From Candidatus Krumholzibacteriota bacterium (GTDB lineage: Bacteria > Krumholzibacteriota > Krumholzibacteriia > JAJRXK01): DNA of 64,000 bases. The notes under the pieces were generated by a model. The model did not search any database. It was not told where the DNA came from and saw only the letters and a list, made by a program, of their open reading frames with translations. The stretch's first letter is position 1, and every line of letters starts with the position of its first letter. Where the stretch lies: positions 1 through 64,000 of the forward strand of contig JAJDAC010000012.1 of NCBI GenBank assembly GCA_029262065.1, read 5' to 3'. Both the position numbers and the translations under genes were made by a program. Below, piece by piece: positions 4,489 to 35,489 of the stretch.

Positions 4489-6969
4489 TCAGGCCACGAC
4501 GATGTTTACCAATTTGTCCGGGACCACGATGACCTTGCGAACCTGCTTGCCGTCGATCCAGTGCGGAATCCGACCATAAGCCAGGGCCATTTCAGTCAGC
4601 GCGTCGCGCTCGGTGCCACGGGCCACCTTCATCTGATCGCGGAGCTTGCCGTTGACCTGCAGCACCACGGTTACCTCGTCGCGCTCGAGCGCGGCCGGAT
4701 CCCACGTAGGCCACCGATCGTCAAAGACGCTGTGTTCACCGCCGAGCATCTGCCAGAGCTCTTCACCCAGATGCGGCGTAAGGGGTGCCATCGTGCGCAC
4801 CCAGTCCCGCACGATGTCGGCCGCCTCGGCGGGCCAGGGGTTATCACCCCGGGCGTCGGCGAAGGCGTACAGCGCGTTGGTCAGCTCCATGTGCCGGGAG
4901 ATCGCCGTGTTGAACTGGAATCGCTCCAGGTCGGCCGTGGCTCCCTTCACGGAGTTGTGCCGTGTGAAGCGCAGTTCGTCCAGTCCCGATTCATCGGAAG
5001 ACGCCGCGGCCAGGACCTGGGGGCCCCGTTCGTGCACGAATCGGTGCACCCGTCCGAGATACCGGAACATGGCCTTGAGGCCGGAGTCATCCCAATCGCC
5101 GCCTTCGATATAGGCGAACCCGAACATGAGATAGGCCCGTAACGTGTCGCTTCCGTAGAGTTCGAGGTAGTCCTCGGGATTCACGACGTTGCCGCGGCTC
5201 TTGCTCATGCGCGCACCGTTGCTGGTGATGACACCTTGGTGCACCAGACGCTGGAAAGGTTCATCGAACGCCACGTGCCCCAGTCGGTGCAGGACTTTCA
5301 CGATGTACCGGGCGTAGAGAAGGTGCATGACGGCGTGCTCGGGCCCACCGACGTATTGATGTACTGGCATCCACCGGTTCACAAGTTCTGGATCGAACGG
5401 GCGGCTCGCATCCTTCGGATCCAGATACCGCAGGAAATACCAACTGGAATCCACGAACGTGTCCATGGTGTCGGTGTCGCGCTCGGCACCGCCGCCGCAC
5501 TTTGGACAGTCGACGAAGCGCCAGGTTGGATGGCGCTTCAACGGACTCTCGCCCGTGGGCTTGAACTCCACGTCTTCGGGTAACCGTACCGGCAACTGAT
5601 CTTGGGGCACCGGCACCTCACCGCACTTGGCGCAGTGGATGATGGGAATGGGCGCACCCCAGTACCGTTGCCGACTGATCAGCCAGTCGCGCAGCCGATA
5701 GTTGACCGTGGCCTCACCATGCCCCCACTGATCGAGGTACGCAATGACCCGCTCGCGCGCGACGGCGCCGTCGAGCCCGTCAAACTCACCGCTGTTGCAC
5801 ATGGGACCATCTTCGGTCCAGGCCGCGTCGAGCGACGCTTTCGGATCGTCTGATTCGCCCAGGATCACGCGTCGCACGGGAAGGCCGTACCGGTTGGCAA
5901 AGTCGAAGTCGCGCTCATCGTGAGCGGGTACGGCCATGACCGCGCCGGTGCCGTAGCTACCCAACACGTAGTCGGCCACCCACACGGGAATCTCTTCACC
6001 GTTGATGGGGTTCACCGCGTAGGCACCGGTGAACACGCCAGTTTTCTCGCGCACGGTGGAGGTACGATCCACCTCGCTGACGCGCGACGCGGCCTCGACG
6101 TAGGCGCTCACCTCGTCCTGGCGCTCGGGCGAGCAAAGGTGCTCGACCAGCGGGTGCTCCGGCGCCAGTACCATGTAGGTCACACCGAACAACGTGTCGG
6201 GTCGCGTCGTATAGACGGCCAGCTCGCGGTCAAGGGACTCGTCGCTCACGCTGGACTCGGTAACGGTGAACCGCACCGTGGCGCCCTCGCTCCGACCAAT
6301 CCAGTTCTTCTGCATGGCCACCGTCTTGTTTGGCCAGTCGATACGACCAAGGCCCTCCAACAGGTCGTCCGCACTCTCGGTGATGCGGAAGAACCACTGC
6401 GTGAGCAGACGACGGCGTACGGGGTTGTCGCAGCGTTCGCAAAGGCCTTGCACGACCTGCTCGTTGGCCAGCACCGTCTGGCAGCTGTCGCACCAGTTGA
6501 CCGGTGCTTCGGAACGGTAGGCGCTGTTGGCTCGATACAGTTCCAGGAAGAGCCACTGCGTCCACCGGTAGTACTCGGGCTGGTGCGTCTCGAGTTCGTG
6601 GTCCCAGTCGTACATGGCCCCGATGGTCCGAAGCTGCTCTCTCATGTAGGCAATGTTTGCCTCGGTGTGCGGCCTCGGGTGCACATTCTGCTTGATGGCG
6701 AAGTTCTCGGCGGGCAGACCAAAGCTATCGAATCCCATGGGCTGGAAGACGTTCGCACCCTGCATTTTGCGAAAACGTGCCCAGGAATCGGTCGGACCGT
6801 AGTTGAACCAATGGCCCAGGTGCAGACGATTGCCCGATGGGTAGCTGAACATCACCAGGCAGTAGCAGTCCTCGCCCGAGGATCCCTGGAGATTCGACGC
6901 GTGGGCGCGGGATTCTTCCCAAGTAGCACGCCACTTGCTCTCGATTTCATGGGGCTGGTAGGCGGCCAT
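4489..6969 (-). CDS. leuS: Leucyl-tRNA synthetase
   Basis: Class I aminoacyl-tRNA synthetase that charges tRNA-Leu. The product is 826 residues, normal for bacterial LeuRS. The class I signature reads HLGH at residues 50-53 and the KMSKS loop reads RMSKS near residue 588. The CP1 editing domain is intact (TSTVREKTG..., GTGAVMAVPAHDERD). A CxxC...CxxC zinc module lies near residue 160. The open frame continues about 270 codons further upstream, but that part is antisense to the HDOD gene. I chose the ATG at 6969 because the LeuRS family begins there and GGAGGG precedes it. The unidentified 1443-residue gene follows 44 bases later and is probably cotranscribed. Confidence 0.97.
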   Translation of the reverse strand: MAAYQPHEIESKWRATWEESRAHASNLQGSSGEDCYCLVMFSYPSGNRLHLGHWFNYGPTDSWARFRKMQGANVFQPMGFDSFGLPAENFAIKQNVHPRPHTEANIAYMREQLRTIGAMYDWDHELETHQPEYYRWTQWLFLELYRANSAYRSEAPVNWCDSCQTVLANEQVVQGLCERCDNPVRRRLLTQWFFRITESADDLLEGLGRIDWPNKTVAMQKNWIGRSEGATVRFTVTESSVSDESLDRELAVYTTRPDTLFGVTYMVLAPEHPLVEHLCSPERQDEVSAYVEAASRVSEVDRTSTVREKTGVFTGAYAVNPINGEEIPVWVADYVLGSYGTGAVMAVPAHDERDFDFANRYGLPVRRVILGESDDPKASLDAAWTEDGPMCNSGEFDGLDGAVARERVIAYLDQWGHGEATVNYRLRDWLISRQRYWGAPIPIIHCAKCGEVPVPQDQLPVRLPEDVEFKPTGESPLKRHPTWRFVDCPKCGGGAERDTDTMDTFVDSSWYFLRYLDPKDASRPFDPELVNRWMPVHQYVGGPEHAVMHLLYARYIVKVLHRLGHVAFDEPFQRLVHQGVITSNGARMSKSRGNVVNPEDYLELYGSDTLRAYLMFGFAYIEGGDWDDSGLKAMFRYLGRVHRFVHERGPQVLAAASSDESGLDELRFTRHNSVKGATADLERFQFNTAISRHMELTNALYAFADARGDNPWPAEAADIVRDWVRTMAPLTPHLGEELWQMLGGEHSVFDDRWPTWDPAALERDEVTVVLQVNGKLRDQMKVARGTERDALTEMALAYGRIPHWIDGKQVRKVIVVPDKLVNIVVA

Positions 6970-7140: not shown

Positions 7141-8052
7141 ATGGATAAGATCAGCTTCCAGGACTTCGTCGATGAGCCCTCGACGATTCAGGAAGCCCCC
7201 GCTCCGGATCTGGATCTGACCACGGAGGTCGATGTTGACCTGGCCGTGCGGCGCCTGCCGCCGCTGCCAGCCGTGTTGCAGGAGGTACTGATGGACCTTC
7301 GCAATGTGGACGCCGACATCGGCAAGCTCGAAGAGCGAATCTCGTCGGACCCCAGTCTGACCACGCGGGTGCTGAAAATGGCCAACAGTCCGTTCTACAA
7401 CTCGCGCAGCGAGGTTGTATCGGTAGGCCGCGCCGTCATGACGCTGGGCTTCAAGACGGTGTCCAACCTGATCCTCGCCACCAGCTTCCGCGGAGCGATG
7501 GCTACCAACCGTGCCATTCCCGGCTACGAGCGCAATGGCATCTTTCACCACAGTCTGGCCGTCGGTCTGGCGTCGACCCGCTTGACCCGCCACGTCAGCA
7601 GCCTGCGAGGCTACGAGGACGAAACCTTCGTGGCCGGCCTGCTGCACGACGTAGGTCGTATCGCCCTGGCCAACGTCTACCAGGAGCATGCCGAAGCGTT
7701 CGGTCCCGGTGGCGATCCACTGAGTCTGGAGAACGAGCGCAAGGTCCTGGGCATCGACCACCAGGATGTCGGGGCCAAGGTCATCTCCCATTGGGGCTTG
7801 CCCGACGAACTACTTTGTCCGGTGACCCGGCACCACGACGACCCTGAGTCGCTGGTCGACGAACCGGTCACCCTGGCCGTGCAATTCGTCGACCGGTGGT
7901 TGAACCACGAGTCATATGCCCGCACCAGCCCGCGCAAGTGTAACGCGCTGGCCGATGATGCCGCGCGCCTGGGCACCGAGCCCGAGATCGTCGCCACCGC
8001 ACTCGAGGGCCTGGCTGACGAGGTGACCACGTTCCTGGGCGGTGGCGAGTGA
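7141..8052 (+). CDS. HDOD-domain signalling protein
   Basis: The product is 303 residues. After an acidic N-terminus of about 35 residues comes an HDOD domain (about 36-240): 'RLPPLPAVLQEVL', 'DPSLTTRVLKMANSPFY', 'AVMTLGFKTVSNLILATSF' and an HD-like motif 'GLLHDVGRIAL' near residue 168. HDOD proteins are degenerate HD-superfamily regulators that usually act as scaffolds in bacterial signalling. The gene is divergent from leuS and is first in a four-gene operon; its TGA overlaps the GTG of the phosphatase gene (GTGA). The context suggests a protein-protein role upstream of a PP2C/STAS switch. I cannot tell what it senses. Confidence 0.88.
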   Translation: MDKISFQDFVDEPSTIQEAPAPDLDLTTEVDVDLAVRRLPPLPAVLQEVLMDLRNVDADIGKLEERISSDPSLTTRVLKMANSPFYNSRSEVVSVGRAVMTLGFKTVSNLILATSFRGAMATNRAIPGYERNGIFHHSLAVGLASTRLTRHVSSLRGYEDETFVAGLLHDVGRIALANVYQEHAEAFGPGGDPLSLENERKVLGIDHQDVGAKVISHWGLPDELLCPVTRHHDDPESLVDEPVTLAVQFVDRWLNHESYARTSPRKCNALADDAARLGTEPEIVATALEGLADEVTTFLGGGE

Positions 8053-9644
8053 GCACCCGTATTCCGGTATCGGGTTCGGAGTTTGCCCGCCTCCATGCGG
8101 CGCTCGATCCGCGTACGTGCTACACCACGTGGCGCACGGTATGTGAGGAGCGATTCGGGTGCGCCCCGCTGGCGGCCTACATCTCGGTACGCGACGGTGG
8201 CTTCACCTTGGATCCGCAGTTTTCGGTAGCGAAGGACATGCCCCATCGGTGGTCCGCGAACGGTGCACCAGCCAACGTGCGAATGCTGGAATTCCAGTAC
8301 CGCGATCGGACACTGGGCGGATTCGCGTGGGCCTTCGATCCTGACCTGGATTTCCAGGAAATCGAGGAAATCACCACCGAACACTTTGCGCCGGCGTTCT
8401 TCCGAGCCAGCTATCTCGCCCAGGCGCTGGCCGAGAACAGCCGCAGCCGGGACCAGCTGCACTACCTATCGGAGATGGGCAACCTGCTGGGCGTGCTGGA
8501 CGTGGCCACGCTGTTGGTCAACATCCTGGAGCTCACCAGCGGAATCCTCGACGCCGACCTGGGCTCGATCGTGCTACTCGACGCGGCCAATGAACCGGTA
8601 ACCGAACTCGAGTGGGGACTACCGCACGAAGCTCTCGTATCGGCCCGCCTGGCCGACGGAGTCAAGGTGCTCGACTGCGCGTTCGAGTCGCGCGAACCGC
8701 TTTCCCTGCGCAACGAAGATGTGATCACCGACGGACACTTTGTTTTTGATGGACTGTTGGTGCTACCCCTCGTGGGTCCCAACGGGGTTCTCGGATCCAT
8801 GAACTTCGTGGGCACCGAGTTCGGTCCCGACCGGTTGGAAGTCGTTCGTCCCGGTGTGAGTCTGGCCGCGATCGCGGTCGAGAACGCCATGCTCGTGAAG
8901 ATAAAGCTGGAGCGGGAACGCGAGCAGGAGCAGCTCGCGCTGGGCAAGAGTATTCAGCAGGGACTTCTCCCCAAGTCACCGCCCGAAGTGGAAGGCGTGG
9001 AACTCGCCGGCCACTCCGAATCGGCCACGATGATCGGCGGCGACTACTTCGACTATTTCAAACTCGCGGACGATGGTCTGGGTCTGCTGGTCGCCGACGT
9101 GGCCGGCAAGGGCGTAGCCGCGGGCCTCATCATGACCGCGGCGCGGGCCATGTTCCGCGCGGCCTGCATTGATTTGGAAGACCCGCGCGCCATTCTCGAG
9201 CAGGTAAACAACCTGATGTGCGCGGAGGAGTTCGGCGGGCGTTTCGTGACCGCGGTCTTCGTCAACGTAGACCCCAAGACGCGCGTGGCCCGTATCGCGT
9301 CGGCGGGGCACGAACCCACCCGGATCTTCCGGGCATCCGACGCCACGATCGAAGAAATCCTGCAGCCGGCGCTGCCGCTGGGGCTGCGCGACGCGGTTGA
9401 GTACGACCAGCGTGTAGTGCATCTGCAGCCGGGGGACGCCATGGTGCTGCACACCGACGGCGTGAACGAGGCCATGGATCTGCAGCGGGTTCAGTTCGGC
9501 GATCAACTCGACGCCGCCATCCTGGCGGGCAAGAACGACACGGCCGAAGAACTCATGCAGCGGATCCTTTCGTGCGTCGACGAGCACATCGGCGACGCAG
9601 CCCGGCACGACGACACCACCCTCATCACGGCGCGCATGCGCTAG
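8049..9644 (+). CDS. GAF-domain PP2C (SpoIIE/RsbU-type) serine phosphatase
   Basis: The product is 531 residues starting at GTG, overlapping the HDOD stop by four bases. The N-terminal part (about 1-130) is unassigned. Residues about 150-300 look like a GAF sensor domain, followed by a charged linker (KLEREREQEQLALGKSIQQGLLP) typical of RsbU-like proteins. The C-terminal phosphatase domain carries the metal-binding aspartates in GGDYFDYF and VADVAGKGVAA, then 'HTDGVNEAM' and 'RHDDTTLI'. Such enzymes dephosphorylate STAS-domain antagonists, and a STAS gene lies 34 bases downstream. That pairing is the strongest clue to its substrate. No HATPase kinase or sigma factor is visible nearby. Confidence 0.93.
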   Translation: MSTRIPVSGSEFARLHAALDPRTCYTTWRTVCEERFGCAPLAAYISVRDGGFTLDPQFSVAKDMPHRWSANGAPANVRMLEFQYRDRTLGGFAWAFDPDLDFQEIEEITTEHFAPAFFRASYLAQALAENSRSRDQLHYLSEMGNLLGVLDVATLLVNILELTSGILDADLGSIVLLDAANEPVTELEWGLPHEALVSARLADGVKVLDCAFESREPLSLRNEDVITDGHFVFDGLLVLPLVGPNGVLGSMNFVGTEFGPDRLEVVRPGVSLAAIAVENAMLVKIKLEREREQEQLALGKSIQQGLLPKSPPEVEGVELAGHSESATMIGGDYFDYFKLADDGLGLLVADVAGKGVAAGLIMTAARAMFRAACIDLEDPRAILEQVNNLMCAEEFGGRFVTAVFVNVDPKTRVARIASAGHEPTRIFRASDATIEEILQPALPLGLRDAVEYDQRVVHLQPGDAMVLHTDGVNEAMDLQRVQFGDQLDAAILAGKNDTAEELMQRILSCVDEHIGDAARHDDTTLITARMR

Positions 9645-9678
9645 CCCGACGAGATACTCTCATCGAAGGTAGGAAGAA

Positions 9679-10026
9679 ATGACTACGGTCTCTCAGGAAA
9701 CGATAAACGGCCTGGCCGTCTTTCGACCCGAAGGATCCATCGACATCACCAACAGTGCCGAACTACGGGATTCCCTGCTCGAAACGTTCAAAGCGGGCCA
9801 CCAATCCGTGGTTCTCGACCTGGATCAGGTGAACTACGTGGACAGCTCGGGCCTATCAGCTCTGGTCGCCGCGGCCAGCGGTTACGAAAAACAGGGTGCG
9901 AAAGTCATTCTGTGTTGTATACAACCAGCAGTCATGAAGGTGCTGGAAATGACGAAGCTCACCCAGTTCTTCGAAATCTGTAGCGATCTCAACGAGGCCG
10001 AAGCCAAGGCCCAGTCCCTGGCCTGA
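9679..10026 (+). CDS. STAS-domain anti-sigma factor antagonist
   Basis: The product is 115 residues, the usual size of a stand-alone STAS protein (SpoIIAA/RsbV family). The conserved loop reads YVDSSGLSALVAA near residues 54-63; the serine in DSSGL is the usual phosphorylation site. The strand 'SVVLDLDQV' before it and 'VMKVLEMTKL' after it also fit. A good ribosome binding site (AGGAAG) precedes the ATG. The gene lies between the PP2C phosphatase and the patatin gene, so the phosphatase probably acts on it. The cognate kinase is not in the window. Confidence 0.95.
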   Translation: MTTVSQETINGLAVFRPEGSIDITNSAELRDSLLETFKAGHQSVVLDLDQVNYVDSSGLSALVAAASGYEKQGAKVILCCIQPAVMKVLEMTKLTQFFEICSDLNEAEAKAQSLA

Positions 10027-10034
10027 GTTATCCG

Positions 10035-10964
10035 ATGAATCCACCAGCGGATACGAGAGCCAACGGGCCAGGAAACGGTGTCGCGATCAACCCATCGGAT
10101 GTTTCTGACGTCATGGACGTTGAAAATCCTCGTCGGGTCGGCGTAGCCCTCTCGGGCGGTACGGCCAAGGTCATCGCCCACGTCGGCGTGCTGAAGGCGC
10201 TGGAAGAGGCCGGGCTGGCGCCCGACGTCCTGGCGGGCACCAGTGGTGGCAGTCTGATCGCCGTACTGTACGCCTCGGGCCTGACGGTGAAAGAACTTGA
10301 GGACCTGGCCGACGAGGTCAACTGGCGCAAGCTGGCCAACGTTCACCTGCCCAAGTTGGGCTTGCTTTCGAGCCAACGCATCGAAGACTTCGTGCGCGAG
10401 CTCGTGGGAGATCTGCGTTTTGAAGATCTGAAGATCCCCACCGATGTAATCGCCACGAATCTGCTAACCGGAGAGAAGACCGTATTCTCCAGCGGCATGG
10501 TCGCGCCGATCATTCGCGCCAGCTGCAGCATTCCCCAGATCTTCGGCCCCGTGCGCGTGAACGGCGGGCTCTACACCGACGGCGGCGTCATCGAATATCT
10601 TCCGATCGAGACCCTGCTCGAGCGCCACTGCCGGGTAAACGTCGGTGTCCATCTGGGCGCCTACATGGATTTCTCAGAGCCACCACGGCATCTGCTGGGT
10701 ATGATCATGCGCGTGATCGGCCTGGTCGCGGTGCGCAACGCACGCGCGTCGGAGAAGCTGGCCGATGTGATCATCAAGCCCGATCTGCGCGACTTTGGCG
10801 GCTTCGATCTGAAGCGGGCCGACGAGATGATCGAAGTTGGCTACCAGTGCGGCCTGGCCGCGGTGCCGCAGATCCTGGCGTGCCTCGAACACGAGGAATC
10901 GCTCTGGACGAAGCTCAAGTCCAAGCTTCGTCCCCGTTCGCAAGACGTCACCGAATCAGAGTAA
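10035..10964 (+). CDS. Patatin-like phospholipase (RssA/NTE type)
   Basis: The product is 309 residues with no signal peptide, so it is probably cytoplasmic or peripheral. It carries the patatin features: the oxyanion region GVALSGGTAKVIAHVGVLKAL, the nucleophile elbow GTSGGS with Ser near residue 71, and the catalytic Asp in YTDGGVIEYLP near residue 180. Family members are Ser-Asp dyad lipid acyl hydrolases. The gene starts eight bases after the STAS stop, so it is very probably in the same transcript as the HDOD, PP2C and STAS genes. A second ATG about 26 codons in (MDVENPRR) is an alternative start. Its 3' end overlaps the convergent protease gene by 17 bases. Confidence 0.93.
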   Translation: MNPPADTRANGPGNGVAINPSDVSDVMDVENPRRVGVALSGGTAKVIAHVGVLKALEEAGLAPDVLAGTSGGSLIAVLYASGLTVKELEDLADEVNWRKLANVHLPKLGLLSSQRIEDFVRELVGDLRFEDLKIPTDVIATNLLTGEKTVFSSGMVAPIIRASCSIPQIFGPVRVNGGLYTDGGVIEYLPIETLLERHCRVNVGVHLGAYMDFSEPPRHLLGMIMRVIGLVAVRNARASEKLADVIIKPDLRDFGGFDLKRADEMIEVGYQCGLAAVPQILACLEHEESLWTKLKSKLRPRSQDVTESE

Positions 10965-13900
10965 CGCTGGTCGTCACGGGACGACCCTCCACATCAGCCA
11001 CGACCCGATAGACGCCGCTGGCCAACGGACGGCCGTGGTCATCGAGGGCCGCCCAGGTCTGACGATGCGCAGGGCCAGCCACCGGCTGACTCTCCCAACG
11101 CGCCACGCGACGGCCGCGCGCGTCGTAGACCGACCATTGCACACGGTCCGTCGATGGCGCGTACAACTCGAATTGGACGCGGGGATTGAACGGATTGGGG
11201 TGGGCACTCAACTCGTAGCTCAAGGCCGTCGGTGAGTCGAGGTTCTCGGCCGCCACGGGCGTGGACGCCTGGCATCCGTAACATCCCGTGGCGCGAACAT
11301 CGGCACGATCCTGATTCCAGAATTCCTCAGGAACCGAAGCCTGGCGCCCGGGCAACAGGTAGAGCTGATTGGCCCTCGCCACCACGATCTCCGCCCGGCC
11401 GTCGTTGTCGAGGTCGGCGATCAGCGGCGCCAGAATACCCGGCTTGGGGTTGCTCACGTGGCCACTCAACGTATCGAGTCGGAACCGCGCGTCGAGTTCG
11501 CCGCCAGCGAAACCATAGCTTCCCTCCATACTTCCGAATCGCAGCGTGCCTATTGGCCCCGCTTCGTTCCACGCGGCCTGCAGGGGAAGAAACAGCTCGG
11601 CGCCGGCATCGGCGGCGACATCGCCGACCCGTATCTCGCCCAGCGCCATCCGCGTGAAGTTGAACGTGGAGCCGACAAAGCCGGGGGAAGCCAGGGGCAT
11701 CAGCGGCCACAGGCTCTCCTGTCCGTTCAGCGAGAAACGATGGACGCGCACCTGGGCGCCACCGCTGGACTCGGCGTGGACCGCACCCGCCAGGAAGTAC
11801 GACTCGCCACCCCGCTCGGTTCGCGACGCGATCAGAAAACCGCTGGCGGTGGCCGTACTGGCACCCGCCGTGGAAAATGCCGCCGGAAAACCAGTGACGA
11901 CGGAACCGGAAGCATCGAACACCAGCAGGGTCGAATTTCCCGAGGTCTGGCGCTCGATGATGGCAATGAAGTGGTCCGCACCGTTTTGCCCCAACACCAC
12001 CGGCGCGCCGTAGTCGCGTCCGGCATCGAGTGCCACCGGCCACCCTGGGAAAGCGGTACCGGAAGTCGACCGCACTTGCAGAGCACCGGACTCCTGGTAG
12101 ACCAGCTCGTCCTGACCGTCGTCGTCCAGATCGACCACCGCCAACGCGCTCACTTCGGGTCCGGACGCCGACCAGCGCGCGATTTCCGAGCCCGCTACAT
12201 CCAGGACGACCACATCTCCAGCCGACGCGACGGCCAGGGCATCAGCGGCGCCCTGCCGGACCACGACCGCCGCGGTCGTGGCCTCGTTGTTGGAAACCGC
12301 CGTCTGAAAGGCAAGCTGACCGTTGGATCTCATGCCCAGTACTTCGCCAAACTGAGAGCCCGCGGCGATGATCGGGCCCTGGGCCGAGGCCGCGACCACC
12401 GGTCGCGAAAGCACGCCCAGACCACTGCTGAACACCGTGCGGGGGAAGATGCCGAAGTTGGAACCATCGGCGTTCACCGCATAGAACGTGTGCCCCTGCG
12501 GATCGATGGCCACGTTGTTGGTGGTCAGGACCTCGAGCTGACCATCTCCATCGAGATCGAACGCCGTGGGTGGCGCCGAAGCGTCGGCCGACAGACGCAC
12601 GGGCCACAGGTCGTTCTGCTGGAACTCCTGCGAGGTTATCAGGATTCCCGATCCTTGCCCGGCGATTCGTTTGACCACCAGGATGTGCCATGCCCGTCGG
12701 GGGTTTTCCAGACGAACCACTTCGGCCTGTCCCGGCGCGGCCGCGAGGGACATCCCGACCGGCACGTAGCCATCGGGTTCTTCTCGCCATACGGCGAGGT
12801 CCAGGTCGAGCCCTTCATCGGGAAACAACTCAACCTGAAACACGCCGTCGGGGGCCACTGGGATTCTCACCGCCCATACGTTTGGTCCTAGAGGCGGTTC
12901 AAACAGAAAGAATGTCACACGATCACCGGGCCACGACACGCGCCGGATGGCGTCGACCGCGGCCGGCAATTGCACCAGACCGTACCCCTCCAGGGAGTCG
13001 TAGCCGACCCGATCAAGCCGTGGCGTCACCCCCGGACTCGTGCCCTGTCCCAGACCCGCGGTCTCCCACGCGGTGATCCTGAGTAGATCGGTAATCTGGC
13101 GAACCTGGGCTCGCGTGGATTGCCAGACCCGTCCGGTCTCGGTCCAGGCCTGCGCCAGGATGCTCATGGCGCCCGCTACGTGCGCCGCGGCGATCGAGGT
13201 GCCCTCGCGCGCGCGGTACGTGTCGTTGGGTTCGTTGTCACAAACCAGAACACCGCCGTCTTCCTGATCCAACGAACCACCCGGTGCAACCAGGTCCAGC
13301 CGAGGCACACCCGCATCGCCGCGGGTCGAGTAGCTGGCGACCCTTCCTTCGACATCGGTCGCGCCCACGGTCAGAACGCCGTCAACACGTCCGGGGTAAC
13401 CCAACGGTCCGGTCGGATCGTTTCCCGAGGGAGCAACCACCACGATGCCTACGTCGATCAGAGCCGACACGGCGTCGGTGATGCCCAGGTCATCTTCCCA
13501 GACCGCGCCAATGAGGACCGTGCGAATTTCGTACGCGTTGCGATTGGCCAAGACCCAATCGATGCCGAGCAGCAGGTCACTGGCCCAGACCATCCATTGG
13601 CCTTCGAAGTTGTACGTCTTCACGATGACCATGCGACCTTCGGGAGCCACACCACTCAGGGTTGGATCCGTCGTGCCGTTGCCGAAACCGGCTCCCGCCA
13701 ACGCGGTACCGTGGAGATGGTAATCGTAGGGTCCCGCGCTGCCCGGCTGATCGTCGGTCACGTCGTGCCAACCCGCTACGCGCAACGCCAGGTTGGTATT
13801 GAAGCCGCCCGCAGTTTCCGCGTCGGACCAGTCATCCGCATCGCCCGACTGTGGTCCACCGTCTTCGTTGTCGAGATCCACGTCACCCAGATCGTCGTGC

Positions 13901-14391
13901 GCGGTGTCGCATCCGCTGTCGAGAATGGCCACGGTACTGCGACCGTCGCCGCGCATGGACAGGACGTTCCACACGATAGGATTCGCACCAATCAGTTGCG
14001 TCGTCCGCGACAGCGCCGGCGTGCCCGACTGGTCCGCCGTCAGCGTACCCAGTTGGCTCCAGATGTTCTCGACCGCCGACACGCTGTCGATCGGCGCCTC
14101 GAGAATCCAAAGGCCCTGGAGAGTCTGGATCGTGCCCACCCGAGCGGTGCCGCCCTGCCCCAATGCCGCTTCGGATTGCGTCGCGATCTGGGGCCGAAAC
14201 AGCCACCGGGCGGTGGTGGCCGCATTCGCCGGCGTCTTCACGACGTCCAGGTCGGTTCGGGGGATGACATCGGAGCCCGGCCCTGGGGCGGCCGCGGTCA
14301 ATGCGACCGCGGTCGTCGGTGCGTACCAGCTCAGGTACAGAACGGCACAAACGGCCAGCAGAGGCACACGCAGGCAGGAGATTGGATTCAT
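10948..14391 (-). CDS. Secreted subtilisin-like protease with FG-GAP-like repeats and T9SS-type C-terminus
   Basis: The product is 1147 residues from the ATG at 14391; the frame is open further upstream but the signal peptide begins here (basic start, hydrophobic core to about residue 30). The S8 triad is present: Asp in VAILDSGCD (about 155), His in YHLHGTAL (about 227) and Ser in EGTSIAAAHVAG (about 400). Residues about 600-1040 hold FG-GAP/integrin-like calcium motifs (DLDGDGQLE, DLDDDGQDE, DLDNDGRAE), suggesting a beta-propeller. The last 85 residues form a T9SS/FlgD-like sorting domain (HPNPFNP ... LASGVYRV ... LIR). It is likely delivered to the surface or outside. It stands alone between a convergent operon and yraN. 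Confidence 0.93.
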   Translation of the reverse strand: MNPISCLRVPLLAVCAVLYLSWYAPTTAVALTAAAPGPGSDVIPRTDLDVVKTPANAATTARWLFRPQIATQSEAALGQGGTARVGTIQTLQGLWILEAPIDSVSAVENIWSQLGTLTADQSGTPALSRTTQLIGANPIVWNVLSMRGDGRSTVAILDSGCDTAHDDLGDVDLDNEDGGPQSGDADDWSDAETAGGFNTNLALRVAGWHDVTDDQPGSAGPYDYHLHGTALAGAGFGNGTTDPTLSGVAPEGRMVIVKTYNFEGQWMVWASDLLLGIDWVLANRNAYEIRTVLIGAVWEDDLGITDAVSALIDVGIVVVAPSGNDPTGPLGYPGRVDGVLTVGATDVEGRVASYSTRGDAGVPRLDLVAPGGSLDQEDGGVLVCDNEPNDTYRAREGTSIAAAHVAGAMSILAQAWTETGRVWQSTRAQVRQITDLLRITAWETAGLGQGTSPGVTPRLDRVGYDSLEGYGLVQLPAAVDAIRRVSWPGDRVTFFLFEPPLGPNVWAVRIPVAPDGVFQVELFPDEGLDLDLAVWREEPDGYVPVGMSLAAAPGQAEVVRLENPRRAWHILVVKRIAGQGSGILITSQEFQQNDLWPVRLSADASAPPTAFDLDGDGQLEVLTTNNVAIDPQGHTFYAVNADGSNFGIFPRTVFSSGLGVLSRPVVAASAQGPIIAAGSQFGEVLGMRSNGQLAFQTAVSNNEATTAAVVVRQGAADALAVASAGDVVVLDVAGSEIARWSASGPEVSALAVVDLDDDGQDELVYQESGALQVRSTSGTAFPGWPVALDAGRDYGAPVVLGQNGADHFIAIIERQTSGNSTLLVFDASGSVVTGFPAAFSTAGASTATASGFLIASRTERGGESYFLAGAVHAESSGGAQVRVHRFSLNGQESLWPLMPLASPGFVGSTFNFTRMALGEIRVGDVAADAGAELFLPLQAAWNEAGPIGTLRFGSMEGSYGFAGGELDARFRLDTLSGHVSNPKPGILAPLIADLDNDGRAEIVVARANQLYLLPGRQASVPEEFWNQDRADVRATGCYGCQASTPVAAENLDSPTALSYELSAHPNPFNPRVQFELYAPSTDRVQWSVYDARGRRVARWESQPVAGPAHRQTWAALDDHGRPLASGVYRVVADVEGRPVTTSVTLIR

Positions 14392-14513
14392 ACCGCCACG
14401 AAGGTTGGGGAGATGGAGCGATCCGAGGGCATTGCATGTCCGGGGGCTCCCACAAGTTAGGAAGGGCACCCCCACCGGGTCAATGTCGACCCTGCATCCT
14501 GTACCACGCGGCG

Positions 14514-17216: not shown

Positions 17217-17447
17217 TTAATCGAGGATCTCGATCTGGACTTCCTGACGCTGTCGACCCGCGACCGCGCTCGCCAACGTGCGCAGCGCGGTGGCGGTAGA
17301 GCCGCCGCGGCCGATCACGTGTCCGCGATCGTCCTCCCGCATGCGTACGTTGTACACAATGCGTCGACCGCGTTGTTCTTCCTCGATCGAAACGTCGTCG
17401 GGGTTGTCGACGAGTCCGCGGATTATGATCTCCAGGAACTCTTTCAC
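17217..17447 (-). CDS. khpA: KH-domain RNA-binding protein KhpA
   Basis: The product is 76 residues, a single KH domain with the GxxG loop in GHVIGRGGSTATALRTL. In other bacteria KhpA pairs with KhpB/Jag and binds many RNAs, affecting cell size and division. The GTG start overlaps the rpsP stop (GTGA). Its position between rpsP and rimM is the usual one in many phyla. No jag gene is in this window. Confidence 0.96.
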   Translation of the reverse strand: MKEFLEIIIRGLVDNPDDVSIEEEQRGRRIVYNVRMREDDRGHVIGRGGSTATALRTLASAVAGRQRQEVQIEILD

Positions 17448-18052
17448 TTGGGCGCCTCACCGTCGTCGGCCTTCTCACCTTCGGCGTCGCCGGCCGCATC
17501 TTCGGCCACCTCTTTGGCGCCGCTCTCGGGCGCGGCATCGGCTTCGGCCTTGGCCGTGGCCTCGGCCTTGGCTGCGTCTGCCTCGGCCTTCTTGGTCGCT
17601 TCAGCTTCGGCCGCAGCCGCGGCGGCCGCTTCTTGTTCGGCCTTCTGCTTGGCGGCAATGGCGTCGGCTTCAGCCTGACGCTTCTTCTGACGCGCCTGCT
17701 CGACCTTCATCTTGTCAGCCACGACCTTCTGGCTTCGGGCTTCGACGAAAGCAGCCACCTTCTCGTCGACCTCGGCCGTGGCCGTGCCCGATTTCTCCAG
17801 GTGCCATCGATAGAGAACGCCCTGATTGCGAAGCAAGCTACGCGCGGTGTCGGTCATGGTGGCGCCCTTGTTCAGCCATTCGATGGCCGCCGAGGCATTC
17901 ACCTCGACCTCAAACTGCGCGGGAATGGGATTGTAGACTCCCAGTTTCTCGAGGTACGCGCCATCGCGACGTACGCGTGAATCGACTACGACCAGCCGAT
18001 AGAACGGGCGCTTGGCGCGACCGTATCGGCTCAGACGAATGGTTGCGGACAT
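17444..18052 (-). CDS. rpsP: 30S ribosomal protein S16 with long Ala/Glu/Lys tail
   Basis: The first 85 or so residues are ordinary S16 (MSATIRLSRYGRAKRPFYRLVVVDSR, LEKLGVYNPIP, AIEWLNKGATMTDTARSLL). The protein then continues to 202 residues, more than twice the usual length, with a tail made mostly of Ala, Glu, Lys and Asp (residues about 125-202). The tail looks like a charged helix or disordered segment. Tails of this composition occur on S16 in some phyla, but their role is unknown. The start is fixed by AACGGAGGAAACACGA before the ATG. Confidence 0.97.
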   Translation of the reverse strand: MSATIRLSRYGRAKRPFYRLVVVDSRVRRDGAYLEKLGVYNPIPAQFEVEVNASAAIEWLNKGATMTDTARSLLRNQGVLYRWHLEKSGTATAEVDEKVAAFVEARSQKVVADKMKVEQARQKKRQAEADAIAAKQKAEQEAAAAAAAEAEATKKAEADAAKAEATAKAEADAAPESGAKEVAEDAAGDAEGEKADDGEAPK

Positions 18053-33007: not shown

Positions 33008-33439
33008 CTACCGCTTCTTCCGGCGCGTCGTAGCCTTCTTCCGCGAAGTAGCCTTCTTGCGCTTCGTCGCGGTCTTCTTGCGCTTCGTAGTGGCCTTCTT
33101 CTTACGCTTGGTGGTGGCCTTCTTCTTGCGCTTGGTGGTGGCCTTCTTCTTACGCTTCGTAGTGGCCTTCTTCTTACGCTTGGTGGTGGCCTTCTTCTTG
33201 CGCTTGGTCGTAGCCTTCTTCTTGCGCTTGGTTGTGGCCTTCTTCTTACGCTTGGTTGTGGCCTTCTTCTTACGCTTGGTCGTAGCCTTCTTGCGCTTCG
33301 TAGTGGCCTTCTTGCGCTTCGTCGTAGCCTTCTTGCGCTTCGCCGTAGCCTTCTTCTTCGTAGTGCGCTTCTTCTTAGAAGCCTTCTTCTTTGTACGCTT
33401 CTTGGCCGGTGCGGCCGTCAGCGTGGTTCCGTCTTCCAT
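33008..33439 (-). CDS. Lys/Arg-rich histone H1-like repeat protein
   Basis: The product is 143 residues, almost entirely Lys, Arg, Thr and Ala. A 30-residue N-terminus (MEDGTTLTAAPAKKRTKKK...) is followed by perfect tandem repeats: three 7-residue units, eight units ATTKRKKK, then degenerate ones to the C-terminus. This is the composition of bacterial histone H1-like and AlgP-like proteins that bind DNA non-specifically. There is no enzymatic domain. AGGCAGATAA precedes the ATG, and a near-consensus promoter lies about 110 bases upstream. Single gene, ending beside a shared terminator. The DNA-binding role is inferred from composition. Confidence 0.8.
   Translation of the reverse strand: MEDGTTLTAAPAKKRTKKKASKKKRTTKKKATAKRKKATTKRKKATTKRKKATTKRKKKATTKRKKKATTKRKKKATTKRKKKATTKRKKKATTKRKKKATTKRKKKATTKRKKKATTKRKKTATKRKKATSRKKATTRRKKR
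33053..33349 (-). repeat. In-frame 21/24-base tandem repeats coding ATTKRKK(K)
   Basis: The repeat array encodes residues about 31-129 of the Lys-rich protein. The 24-base units are near-identical at the DNA level, differing mainly in third positions (for example cttacg/cttgcg). Such arrays can gain or lose units by slippage, so copy number may vary between strains. Confidence 0.85.
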
Positions 33440-33550
33440 TTATCTGCCTCGCTTGTCTAGTTGCAGCCTAGATTCAGGGGACAAGCCCCTGCCACGTGGT
33501 TCCGATTCGGTGCACCGTGCAAGCGACGTACCGAATTGGAAATCGTCGGC

Positions 33551-33579
33551 ATTATTGGAACCACGGAAAATCGTGTCAA
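33551..33579 (-). promoter_or_regulatory. Near-consensus sigma70-type promoter for the Lys-rich protein
   Basis: Minus strand: TTGACA, exactly 17 bases, then AATAAT (11 of 12 hexamer positions match). The predicted start of transcription is about 105 bases upstream of the ATG. A T7 run precedes the -35 like an UP element. This is the best promoter match in the window and suggests strong expression. Confidence 0.65.
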
Positions 33580-33979
33580 ACAAAAAAACACCTTTTCCAC
33601 GGCTTCCATTCGGGAAAAAGGAACCCGTTTCGTGCACTTCATGGTTTGAATGCGCGTCCACGGTAGGTCGAATCGTAGTAGGAAAGTTTGCGCACGCATG
33701 AGGAGATCGATTCCGACATGCATTAACTTGGCGTTATTCGCGCAGCGCAGACGTTTTAACCATCACACGCGCTGGCTATACTATAGATAGTGTTGGAAAC
33801 GAGGTGGGTGCGACCCAACTCTCGTCATGGGTCGTCGACGCCGCTGCCGCACGTGCGCGCGCCCGATTTCTTCCAATGCTTCCCCGGGGTCAAAACACGC
33901 TCTCGCCGGTTGCCGGAGCACGCGCGCGCGGCTCTTCAAGCACACCTCGCACCGCGAATGGTTGGGTGCGTTCTGCAAA
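33580..33979. other. Non-coding stretch upstream of the second phosphatase
   Basis: Part of an 800-base gap. The sequence to about 33800 is markedly more AT-rich than its surroundings. A plus-strand TATACT at 33777-33782 with a poor TTTAAC 16 bases upstream is a weak promoter candidate for the phosphatase gene at 34245. From 33804 a plus-strand frame is open into that gene, but its composition is low-complexity and does not look coding. I see nothing else here. Confidence 0.5.
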
Positions 33980-34171
33980 TCAACGGCGGAAAAACTGGTA
34001 CAACCATGCCGCCATCGAACCAAAACCAACAACACACGGCACGGTGGCAACCACCAGATTGCTCGCGGACAGACCGAGCCGCGCACCGGCCCACAAACCC
34101 AGCGCAACGAAAAAACTTAGGGCATTCGGGCCTGAATGGCCTAGCCTTCTGGTGTCAGACCCTGCCGACAG
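33980..34171 (-). pseudogene. Possible remnant of an AtpZ/AtpI-like small membrane protein
   Basis: A minus-strand frame ends in two hydrophobic helices separated by a small-residue turn: SFFVALGLWAGARLGLS, then NLVVATVPCVVGFGSMAAWLYQFFRR and a TGA stop. The layout and the final '(Y/L)YxxxRR' resemble AtpZ/AtpI-type ATP synthase accessory proteins. The frame has no ATG; only a CTG (34171) or internal TTG/GTG codons are available. An ATG at 34181 in a neighbouring frame would connect after a one-base shift. No other atp gene is near. It may be a decayed gene, a gene with an unusual start, or coincidence. Confidence 0.3.
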
Positions 34172-34244
34172 GGCGGGTCATCACCACGCGGTCGACGCTC
34201 TCGGAAATCACGGAGTGTCACCACGCAAGGACCGTGTTTTCCCG

Positions 34245-35489
34245 ATGCATCAATCCGCCGTCGAATTCCTGGCCACGGCCACGCGCGACCTGAACGCGAG
34301 CCTGGATCTCCCGGAAGTACTCCGAACGGTCGCCGAACGCGCGTGCGAGTTCGTGCCCTGCGATCTTCTCTGCGTGATGCTGTACGACGAAGAGTCGCGA
34401 CTCCTCCACCACAGCTATTCGCTGAAACTGGGCGAGCATGTCGAACAAACGGGCAGCTTCCCCATTGGCTACGGAATCTCCGGCACCGCGGCCCAACTGA
34501 AACAGCCCATTCGGGTCGCCGACGTGCGCCAGGACGCGCGCTACGTCCGCTTCCGACACGCCGACGTCGAGATACGCTCCGAGCTGGCAATTCCGCTGCT
34601 GATTCGGGACCGGGTCATTGGAGTGTTGGACCTCGAGAGCCTGGAACCCGACGGCTACTCGCTCGATCACGAGCAGATGCTGACCACGCTGGCGTCCCAT
34701 CTGGCCATGGCCCTGGAGAATGCGCGCCTGTACCAGCGGGTGTCGGCGCAGGAACAACGCATGGAACGGGAGATCGCCACCGCGCGAAAGATCCAGAAGG
34801 GTCTGATGCCACGAAACGTCCCCCTCATGGACGGATTCGAAGTTGGTAAGGCGTTCCGTCCCGCGCGGGAACTGGCGGGCGACTTCTATGATTTCCTGCT
34901 CTACGCCGACGGACGCCTGGCTCTCACCGTGGCCGATGTGGCGGGCAAGGCCACGCCGGCGGCGCTCTACGGCTCGCTGGCGGTGGGCCTCATGCGCGGA
35001 CACGTGGTGCAGCAACAAGGCAATCCGTCCCAGATGCTTCAGCACCTCAACGATCAGCTGGTGGCGCTCACCGTCGAAGGCCGGTTCCTGGCCATGGTGT
35101 ACGCGCTCGTCGATCCGCGGGAAAGGACGCTGACCCTCGCCAGCGCGGGCTTCCCGTTTCCCCGCCTCGTGCGCAAGGGCGAGGTCACGGTGCTGGACTC
35201 GTTTGGTGACATTCCGTTGGGCCTGTTCGCCAAGCGGCACTACGAAGACTTCACCTTGGTCCTGCAGCCCGGCGACCTCGTGGTGTTCGTGTCCGACGGG
35301 CTCGAAGACGGACTGGACCCCAAGGGGAATCCTTCCATGGGAGAACGACTGAACACCTGGTTGGCCCGGCTGTCCCCCTACTCCGCGCAGGAAGTGGTCG
35401 ACGAATTGATGCAGGCCAGCACCCCCGCCCTCACCGGCCGCTCGGAGTCACAGGACGACCGCACCGCGGTGGCGATCCGCGTGAAATGA
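34245..35489 (+). CDS. GAF-domain PP2C (SpoIIE/RsbU-type) phosphatase, second copy
   Basis: The product is 414 residues from the ATG at 34245 (MHQSAVEFLATATRDLNASLDLPEVL), where the GAF domain begins; the longer open frame upstream has no recognisable sequence. GAF occupies residues about 5-155, then a helical linker (EQRMEREIATARKIQKGLMP) and the phosphatase domain (residues about 185-414) with ELAGDFYDFL, VADVAGKATPAALYG, FVSDGLED and SQDDRTAVAIRVK. It has the same architecture as the 8.0-9.6 kb enzyme but lacks the extra N-terminal part and has no STAS neighbour. Its target cannot be read from context. Confidence 0.92.
   Translation: MHQSAVEFLATATRDLNASLDLPEVLRTVAERACEFVPCDLLCVMLYDEESRLLHHSYSLKLGEHVEQTGSFPIGYGISGTAAQLKQPIRVADVRQDARYVRFRHADVEIRSELAIPLLIRDRVIGVLDLESLEPDGYSLDHEQMLTTLASHLAMALENARLYQRVSAQEQRMEREIATARKIQKGLMPRNVPLMDGFEVGKAFRPARELAGDFYDFLLYADGRLALTVADVAGKATPAALYGSLAVGLMRGHVVQQQGNPSQMLQHLNDQLVALTVEGRFLAMVYALVDPRERTLTLASAGFPFPRLVRKGEVTVLDSFGDIPLGLFAKRHYEDFTLVLQPGDLVVFVSDGLEDGLDPKGNPSMGERLNTWLARLSPYSAQEVVDELMQASTPALTGRSESQDDRTAVAIRVK

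Follow-up and report, generated by a model that had tools for sequence, protein, structure and literature searches.

Organization of the HDOD-PP2C-STAS-patatin locus

The window analyzed here, a 64,000-nucleotide stretch of a Krumholzibacteriota genome, carries at positions 7141–10964 a run of four tightly packed plus-strand ORFs that encode, in this order, an HDOD-domain protein, a PP2C-type phosphatase, a STAS protein and a patatin (Table 1). All four Pfam assignments (HDOD, SpoIIE/PP2C, STAS and Patatin) exceed the curated gathering cut-offs. The stop codon of the HDOD gene and the start codon of the PP2C gene share a 4-base GTGA overlap, and gaps of 34 and 8 bases separate the PP2C from the STAS gene and the STAS from the patatin gene, respectively. 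An earlier note on this DNA had described the ORFs, their families and their spacing in the same terms. It had also reported that no HATPase or sigma factor gene is present inside the four-gene run, and this too was borne out.

The 34 bases past the PP2C stop contain a good ribosome site for the STAS gene (GGTAGGA). Since the patatin ATG at 10035, 8 bases past the STAS stop, has no evident ribosome site, patatin translation may be coupled to that of STAS or may start at Met27. A promoter and terminator scan of the locus gave nothing above shuffled sequences. The upstream neighbor of the run is leuS, on the minus strand; downstream, a convergent S8 peptidase gene, whose product also shows a weak FlgD-Ig match, overlaps the final 17 bases of the patatin ORF. 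Table 1 also lists ORFs observed elsewhere in the window, including a second GAF and SpoIIE-type phosphatase that has no STAS or HATPase match beside it.

Table 1. Features of the four-gene run, its flanks and other ORFs in the window
Feature	Position	Strand	Evidence or remark
HDOD-domain protein, 303 aa	7141..8052	+	Pfam PF08668, E 1.3e-49
PP2C/SpoIIE (RsbU)-type serine phosphatase, 531 aa	8049..9644	+	Pfam SpoIIE, 1.4e-43
Single-domain STAS protein, 115 aa, anti-sigma-factor-antagonist type	9679..10026	+	Pfam STAS, 1.6e-25
Patatin-like phospholipase, 309 aa, RssA/PlpD class	10035..10964	+	Pfam Patatin, 3.9e-34
leuS, flanking gene anchoring the locus (start approximate)	4489..6969	-	tblastn, 67% identity to G001
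Convergent subtilase (S8) with FG-GAP repeats (start approximate)	10948..14397	-	Downstream flank kept in G002 and G003
Ribosomal protein S16-like ORF	17444..18052	-	Long Ala/Lys/Glu-rich C-terminal tail
Low-complexity ORF of FLRLVVAF-like repeats	33057..33701		Perhaps antisense to a minus-strand gene for a Lys/Ala/Thr-rich repeat protein
Second GAF and SpoIIE-type phosphatase	33804..35489	+	GAF_2 1.7e-24; SpoIIE 7e-38

Properties of the encoded proteins

The HDOD protein keeps the HD-type residues (H169-D170, and HHDD at 231–234), scores over the cut-offs for both HD (PF01966, 35.4 bits) and HDIG (TIGR00277), and matches HDOD structures such as 3hc1. The PP2C protein is predicted to comprise an N-terminal alpha/beta sensor-like domain, a GAF-like region at 150–278, a long helix at 260–306 and a PP2C domain at about 311–531 (mean pLDDT 75, pTM 0.49), with the GAF-like region giving a weak GAF_2 match (1.1e-5) that falls below the Pfam cut-off. 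Its metal-ligand motifs are intact, with the aspartates present in GGDY, ADVAGKG, TDG and HDD, and its nearest solved relatives by PDB sequence and by fold are the phosphatase domains of P. aeruginosa RssB, SiaA and mycobacterial RsbU.

The STAS protein scores above the NCBIfam ant_ant_sig cut-off, and alignment with SpoIIAA and TM1442 places its predicted phospho-acceptor at Ser56, in VDSSGL; by sequence, it is of the SpoIIAA/TM1442 type with a DSSG phosphosite. The motifs DITNS, YVDSSGLS and KVLEMT are invariant in the three genomes that carry the HDOD, PP2C and STAS genes as a unit (hereafter, the cassette). One possible sign of a non-kinase partner, that the first acidic residue contacting the kinase (SypA Asp20) is here replaced by Ser/Ala/Ala, was rejected as not diagnostic, because among HATPase-adjacent STAS proteins of the window genome the C28 protein also has Ser at this position and the C10 protein has Arg.

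The patatin has a Ser70/Asp182 catalytic dyad and the motifs SGGTAK (oxyanion loop), GTSGG and DGG; Ser70, Asp182 and SGGTAK are invariant across 12 Krumholzibacteriota homologues. Its best match among solved structures is PlpD, both in sequence (structure 5fqu, E 6e-39) and in predicted fold (Foldseek E 1e-22; model pLDDT 81, with the first 28 residues disordered), and is probably a lipid-cutting enzyme, or lipase. The second patatin of the window genome (C24) is distant and is not a copy of the one in the run.

Distribution of the cassette and of patatin

Homologues of the patatin, STAS and HDOD proteins were sought in 58 genomes, the window genome included, and those of the full PP2C protein in 80. 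The family is represented by the window genome (G000), two genomes of a second genus (G002 and G003) and one genome of a third, sister genus (G001). The four-gene order is kept at one chromosomal place in G000, G002 and G003, that is, in three genomes of two genera. Between the window genome and the second genus the proteins of the four-gene run are 46–59% identical (51 and 48% for the HDOD orthologues of G002 and G003), and the HDOD/PP2C overlap is retained in the latter two genomes, as ATGA and GTGA. Because order, close spacing and overlapping ends are kept across two genera whose proteins have diverged by about 50%, the four-gene unit is probably under selection.

The cassette is rare, occurring in 3 of 80 genomes of this poorly known phylum. 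No close homologues of STAS (58 genomes) or of the full PP2C (80 genomes) were found outside these three, to which close HDOD homologues are also confined by a wide score margin (58 genomes). Patatin homologues (E below 1e-49) occur in 13 of 58 genomes, ten of which, G001 and nine further, do not carry the cassette. In G001 the patatin gene directly adjoins leuS at the same locus as in the window genome, and HDOD, PP2C and STAS were not found in this genome at the thresholds used. G001 is 97% complete and its patatin locus lies on a 106-kb contig; absences are to be expected there because it is smaller than the other three genomes of the family. Outside the family the neighbors of patatin differ, and include a SAM hydroxide adenosyltransferase and RtcB. 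Since patatin is kept in genomes without the cassette, and with other neighbors outside the family, it does not depend on the cassette, while the cassette occurs only with patatin (3/3). Of the two observations in relatives that the earlier note had set as tests, adjacency of STAS and patatin is conserved in these three genomes, and patatin beside unrelated genes is found in part, at the G001 locus as well as farther afield.

The flanking genes show that these family loci descend from a single ancestral locus, bordered by rplS, rnhB and yraN at one end and by a large TPR-like gene at the opposite end. leuS lies between the TPR-like gene and the locus in G000 and G001, and is not found there in G002 and G003 (L058 and L060, near 11400–11650). 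An AbiEi/AbiEii type IV toxin-antitoxin pair is present between yraN and patatin in G001 (L059 6129–7840), at the place of the S8 peptidase gene in the other three family genomes.

In a patatin tree that bears on gain versus loss, G001 falls outside the cassette holders with support of only 53%; the absence of the cassette from the rest of the phylum favors its gain, not loss. In another reading, the signaling genes and patatin could be mere neighbors, the inserted cassette perhaps sharing transcription with patatin and taking part in no common pathway. Patatin standing alone beside leuS in G001 is in keeping with this, as is the phylum-wide absence of the cassette, which suggests insertion. 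That gene order, tight packing and the overlap survive in two genera at such divergence argues against it, and we consider it unlikely.

Relationship between the STAS protein and patatin

In each cassette genome STAS lies immediately upstream of patatin, and no other genome surveyed yielded close homologues of the three signaling proteins. This could also reflect direct control, with STAS binding patatin and lipase activity being switched by phosphorylation of Ser56. Action of STAS-type or antagonist proteins on targets other than sigma factors is documented. SiaC acts on the cyclase SiaD (PMC7647112), HsbA is an antagonist acting on an enzyme, HsbD (PMC6482189), the STAS protein MlaB is thought to switch the lipid transporter ATPase MlaF (PMC7367683), and SypA is a STAS-type protein whose target is unknown (PMC10120452). 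By analogy with SiaC-SiaD and the supposed MlaB-MlaF switch, direct control of the lipase is possible, because the cassette is never found away from patatin; the support specific to this locus is the adjacency of the two genes.

Two observations speak against direct control. First, patatin is widely kept without such a STAS protein, as in the 10 of 13 genomes noted above. Second, patatin columns specific to the cassette genomes number 5, as compared with 7, 0 and 1 for other trios, and thus show no excess, in what is a weak test that draws on three cassette genomes only. We hold direct control to be doubtful, and slightly more doubtful still the proposition that STAS phosphorylation directly switches a patatin-class phospholipase, so that a lipase would join the partner-switch outputs as a new class and an HDOD/PP2C sensor would act post-translationally on membrane lipid turnover.

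Kinases and sigma factors elsewhere in the genome

Orphan STAS and PP2C genes commonly lack a linked kinase gene. None of the three cassette genomes has a HATPase_c_2 kinase gene linked to STAS within the run. The window genome encodes seven strong RsbW-like HATPase_c_2 proteins outside the locus, along with totals of 15 STAS and 13 SpoIIE-type matches. Complete switches are grouped on C28 and C10, and three HATPase_c_2 kinases (on C24, C8 and C37) have no adjacent STAS match. With seven such proteins encoded elsewhere, three of them without a STAS match alongside, the genome readily offers a kinase that could act in trans.

The orphan on C8 has counterparts in both other cassette genomes (G002 C26 and G003 C66, about 42% identical to the G000 protein), and no protein of this type was found in cassette-less G001. 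The idea that this kinase goes with the cassette was rejected, since 19 genomes that lack the cassette have weaker relatives of it; with relatives so widespread, the co-occurrence is weak evidence and leaves it a candidate only. The N-terminal part of the G000 protein (L085 5805–6632) has no Pfam match, and its gene is near one resembling an MglA-type GTPase.

A search for a sigma factor that goes with the cassette was likewise negative by number, as each of the four family genomes, G001 included, has four sigma-70 region-3 factors. The earlier note had named a kinase and sigma factor locus elsewhere, accounting for the STAS protein, as a finding that would go against its reading. The seven RsbW-like ATPases go partway toward this and so weaken that reading, and the sigma factors give no signal.

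The sigma factor result also bears on an RssA-RssB-like system, in which the PP2C protein and patatin would cooperate to control a stress sigma factor, either its stability or its activity. The patatin is 35% identical to E. coli RssA over 161 residues and scores 100.6 bits on the RssA model, P. aeruginosa RssB is the nearest match to the PP2C protein by both sequence and fold, and rssA and rssB are adjacent in E. coli. The RssA score nonetheless lies far below the equivalog cut-off of 272. Pfam finds no REC domain in the PP2C protein, which has GAF-like and PP2C regions instead, and BLASTP detects no similarity between this protein and E. coli RssB (best E 0.15). With the same number of sigma-70 region-3 factors in the cassette-less genome, we regard such a system as highly improbable.

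A proposed kinase-less input arm ahead of an existing patatin gene

The reading that we favor, with a probability of about one half, is that a kinase-less PP2C-STAS input arm was placed before a pre-existing patatin gene and that its kinase acts in trans. The HDOD, sensor-PP2C and STAS proteins would form a partner-switching input arm without a kinase, placed in one branch of a Krumholzibacteriota family ahead of an older, independently conserved patatin of the RssA/PlpD class. The three signaling genes would be co-transcribed with patatin. The GAF-like sensor region would gate the PP2C domain, which the HDOD protein probably tunes; PP2C would dephosphorylate Ser56 of STAS, and an RsbW-like HATPase encoded elsewhere would re-phosphorylate it. 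The phosphorylation state of STAS would then report mainly to the trans kinase, and the lipase would serve as a co-expressed membrane or lipid effector. In favor of this reading are the gene order and locus shared by three genomes, the intact motifs, the types of the STAS and PP2C proteins, the HATPase_c_2 proteins encoded elsewhere and the patatins that occur without the cassette.

Within a single family, genera differ in whether the cassette is present at this locus, which provides a clean natural experiment in which a signaling module is added to an existing enzyme gene. Partner switches are known to act on sigma factors, on diguanylate cyclases and on a few targets not yet known; a lipase output, if true, would widen this range. 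The role of RssA-class patatins is unknown even in E. coli (PMC3469383), and such an output would, if true, also offer a testable model for those that lie beside phosphatase-like regulators.

Comparison with known systems

In the open-licence literature we found no described HDOD-PP2C-STAS-patatin operon, and no paper that joins either patatin or HDOD proteins with anti-sigma factor antagonists. The earlier note knew of no described system of this composition, which holds in that literature for the four genes together and needs qualifying for one part of them, to which E. coli rssA-rssB is a partial parallel.

As in RsbU/RsbV/RsbW and SpoIIE/SpoIIAA/SpoIIAB, a sensor-bearing PP2C is combined with a single-domain STAS protein that has a conserved phospho-Ser motif; unlike those systems, the run includes HDOD and patatin genes and has no RsbW-like kinase or sigma factor in the operon. 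SiaABCD, HsbRA-HsbD and SypE-SypA are similar in that a PP2C and antagonist-type switch has an enzyme or other non-sigma target as its output. Their kinase, however, is in the operon or fused, whereas here none is linked, and their known enzyme outputs are diguanylate cyclases, whereas the sole enzyme here is a probable lipase. MlaB-MlaF likewise involves a STAS protein in lipid handling, with MlaB bound to the transporter ATPase, but MlaB is a minimal STAS protein in an ABC transporter, with no PP2C, HDOD or patatin.

The patatin itself shares sequence, fold and the Ser-Asp dyad with the PlpD/RssA class. PlpD is a secreted protein that carries its own translocator in addition to the patatin, whereas the window ORF consists of a patatin domain only, with a short disordered N-terminus. 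In E. coli rssA-rssB a patatin-like gene also lies beside an RssB-type gene, and the Pseudomonas RssB counterpart carries a PP2C domain; the E. coli pair differs in having no STAS or HDOD gene and in placing the patatin gene first, and E. coli RssB, a response regulator, shows no detectable similarity in sequence to the PP2C protein of the window. Taken together, the components of the locus are of known kinds, and their link to a patatin is unusual yet paralleled by E. coli rssA-rssB.
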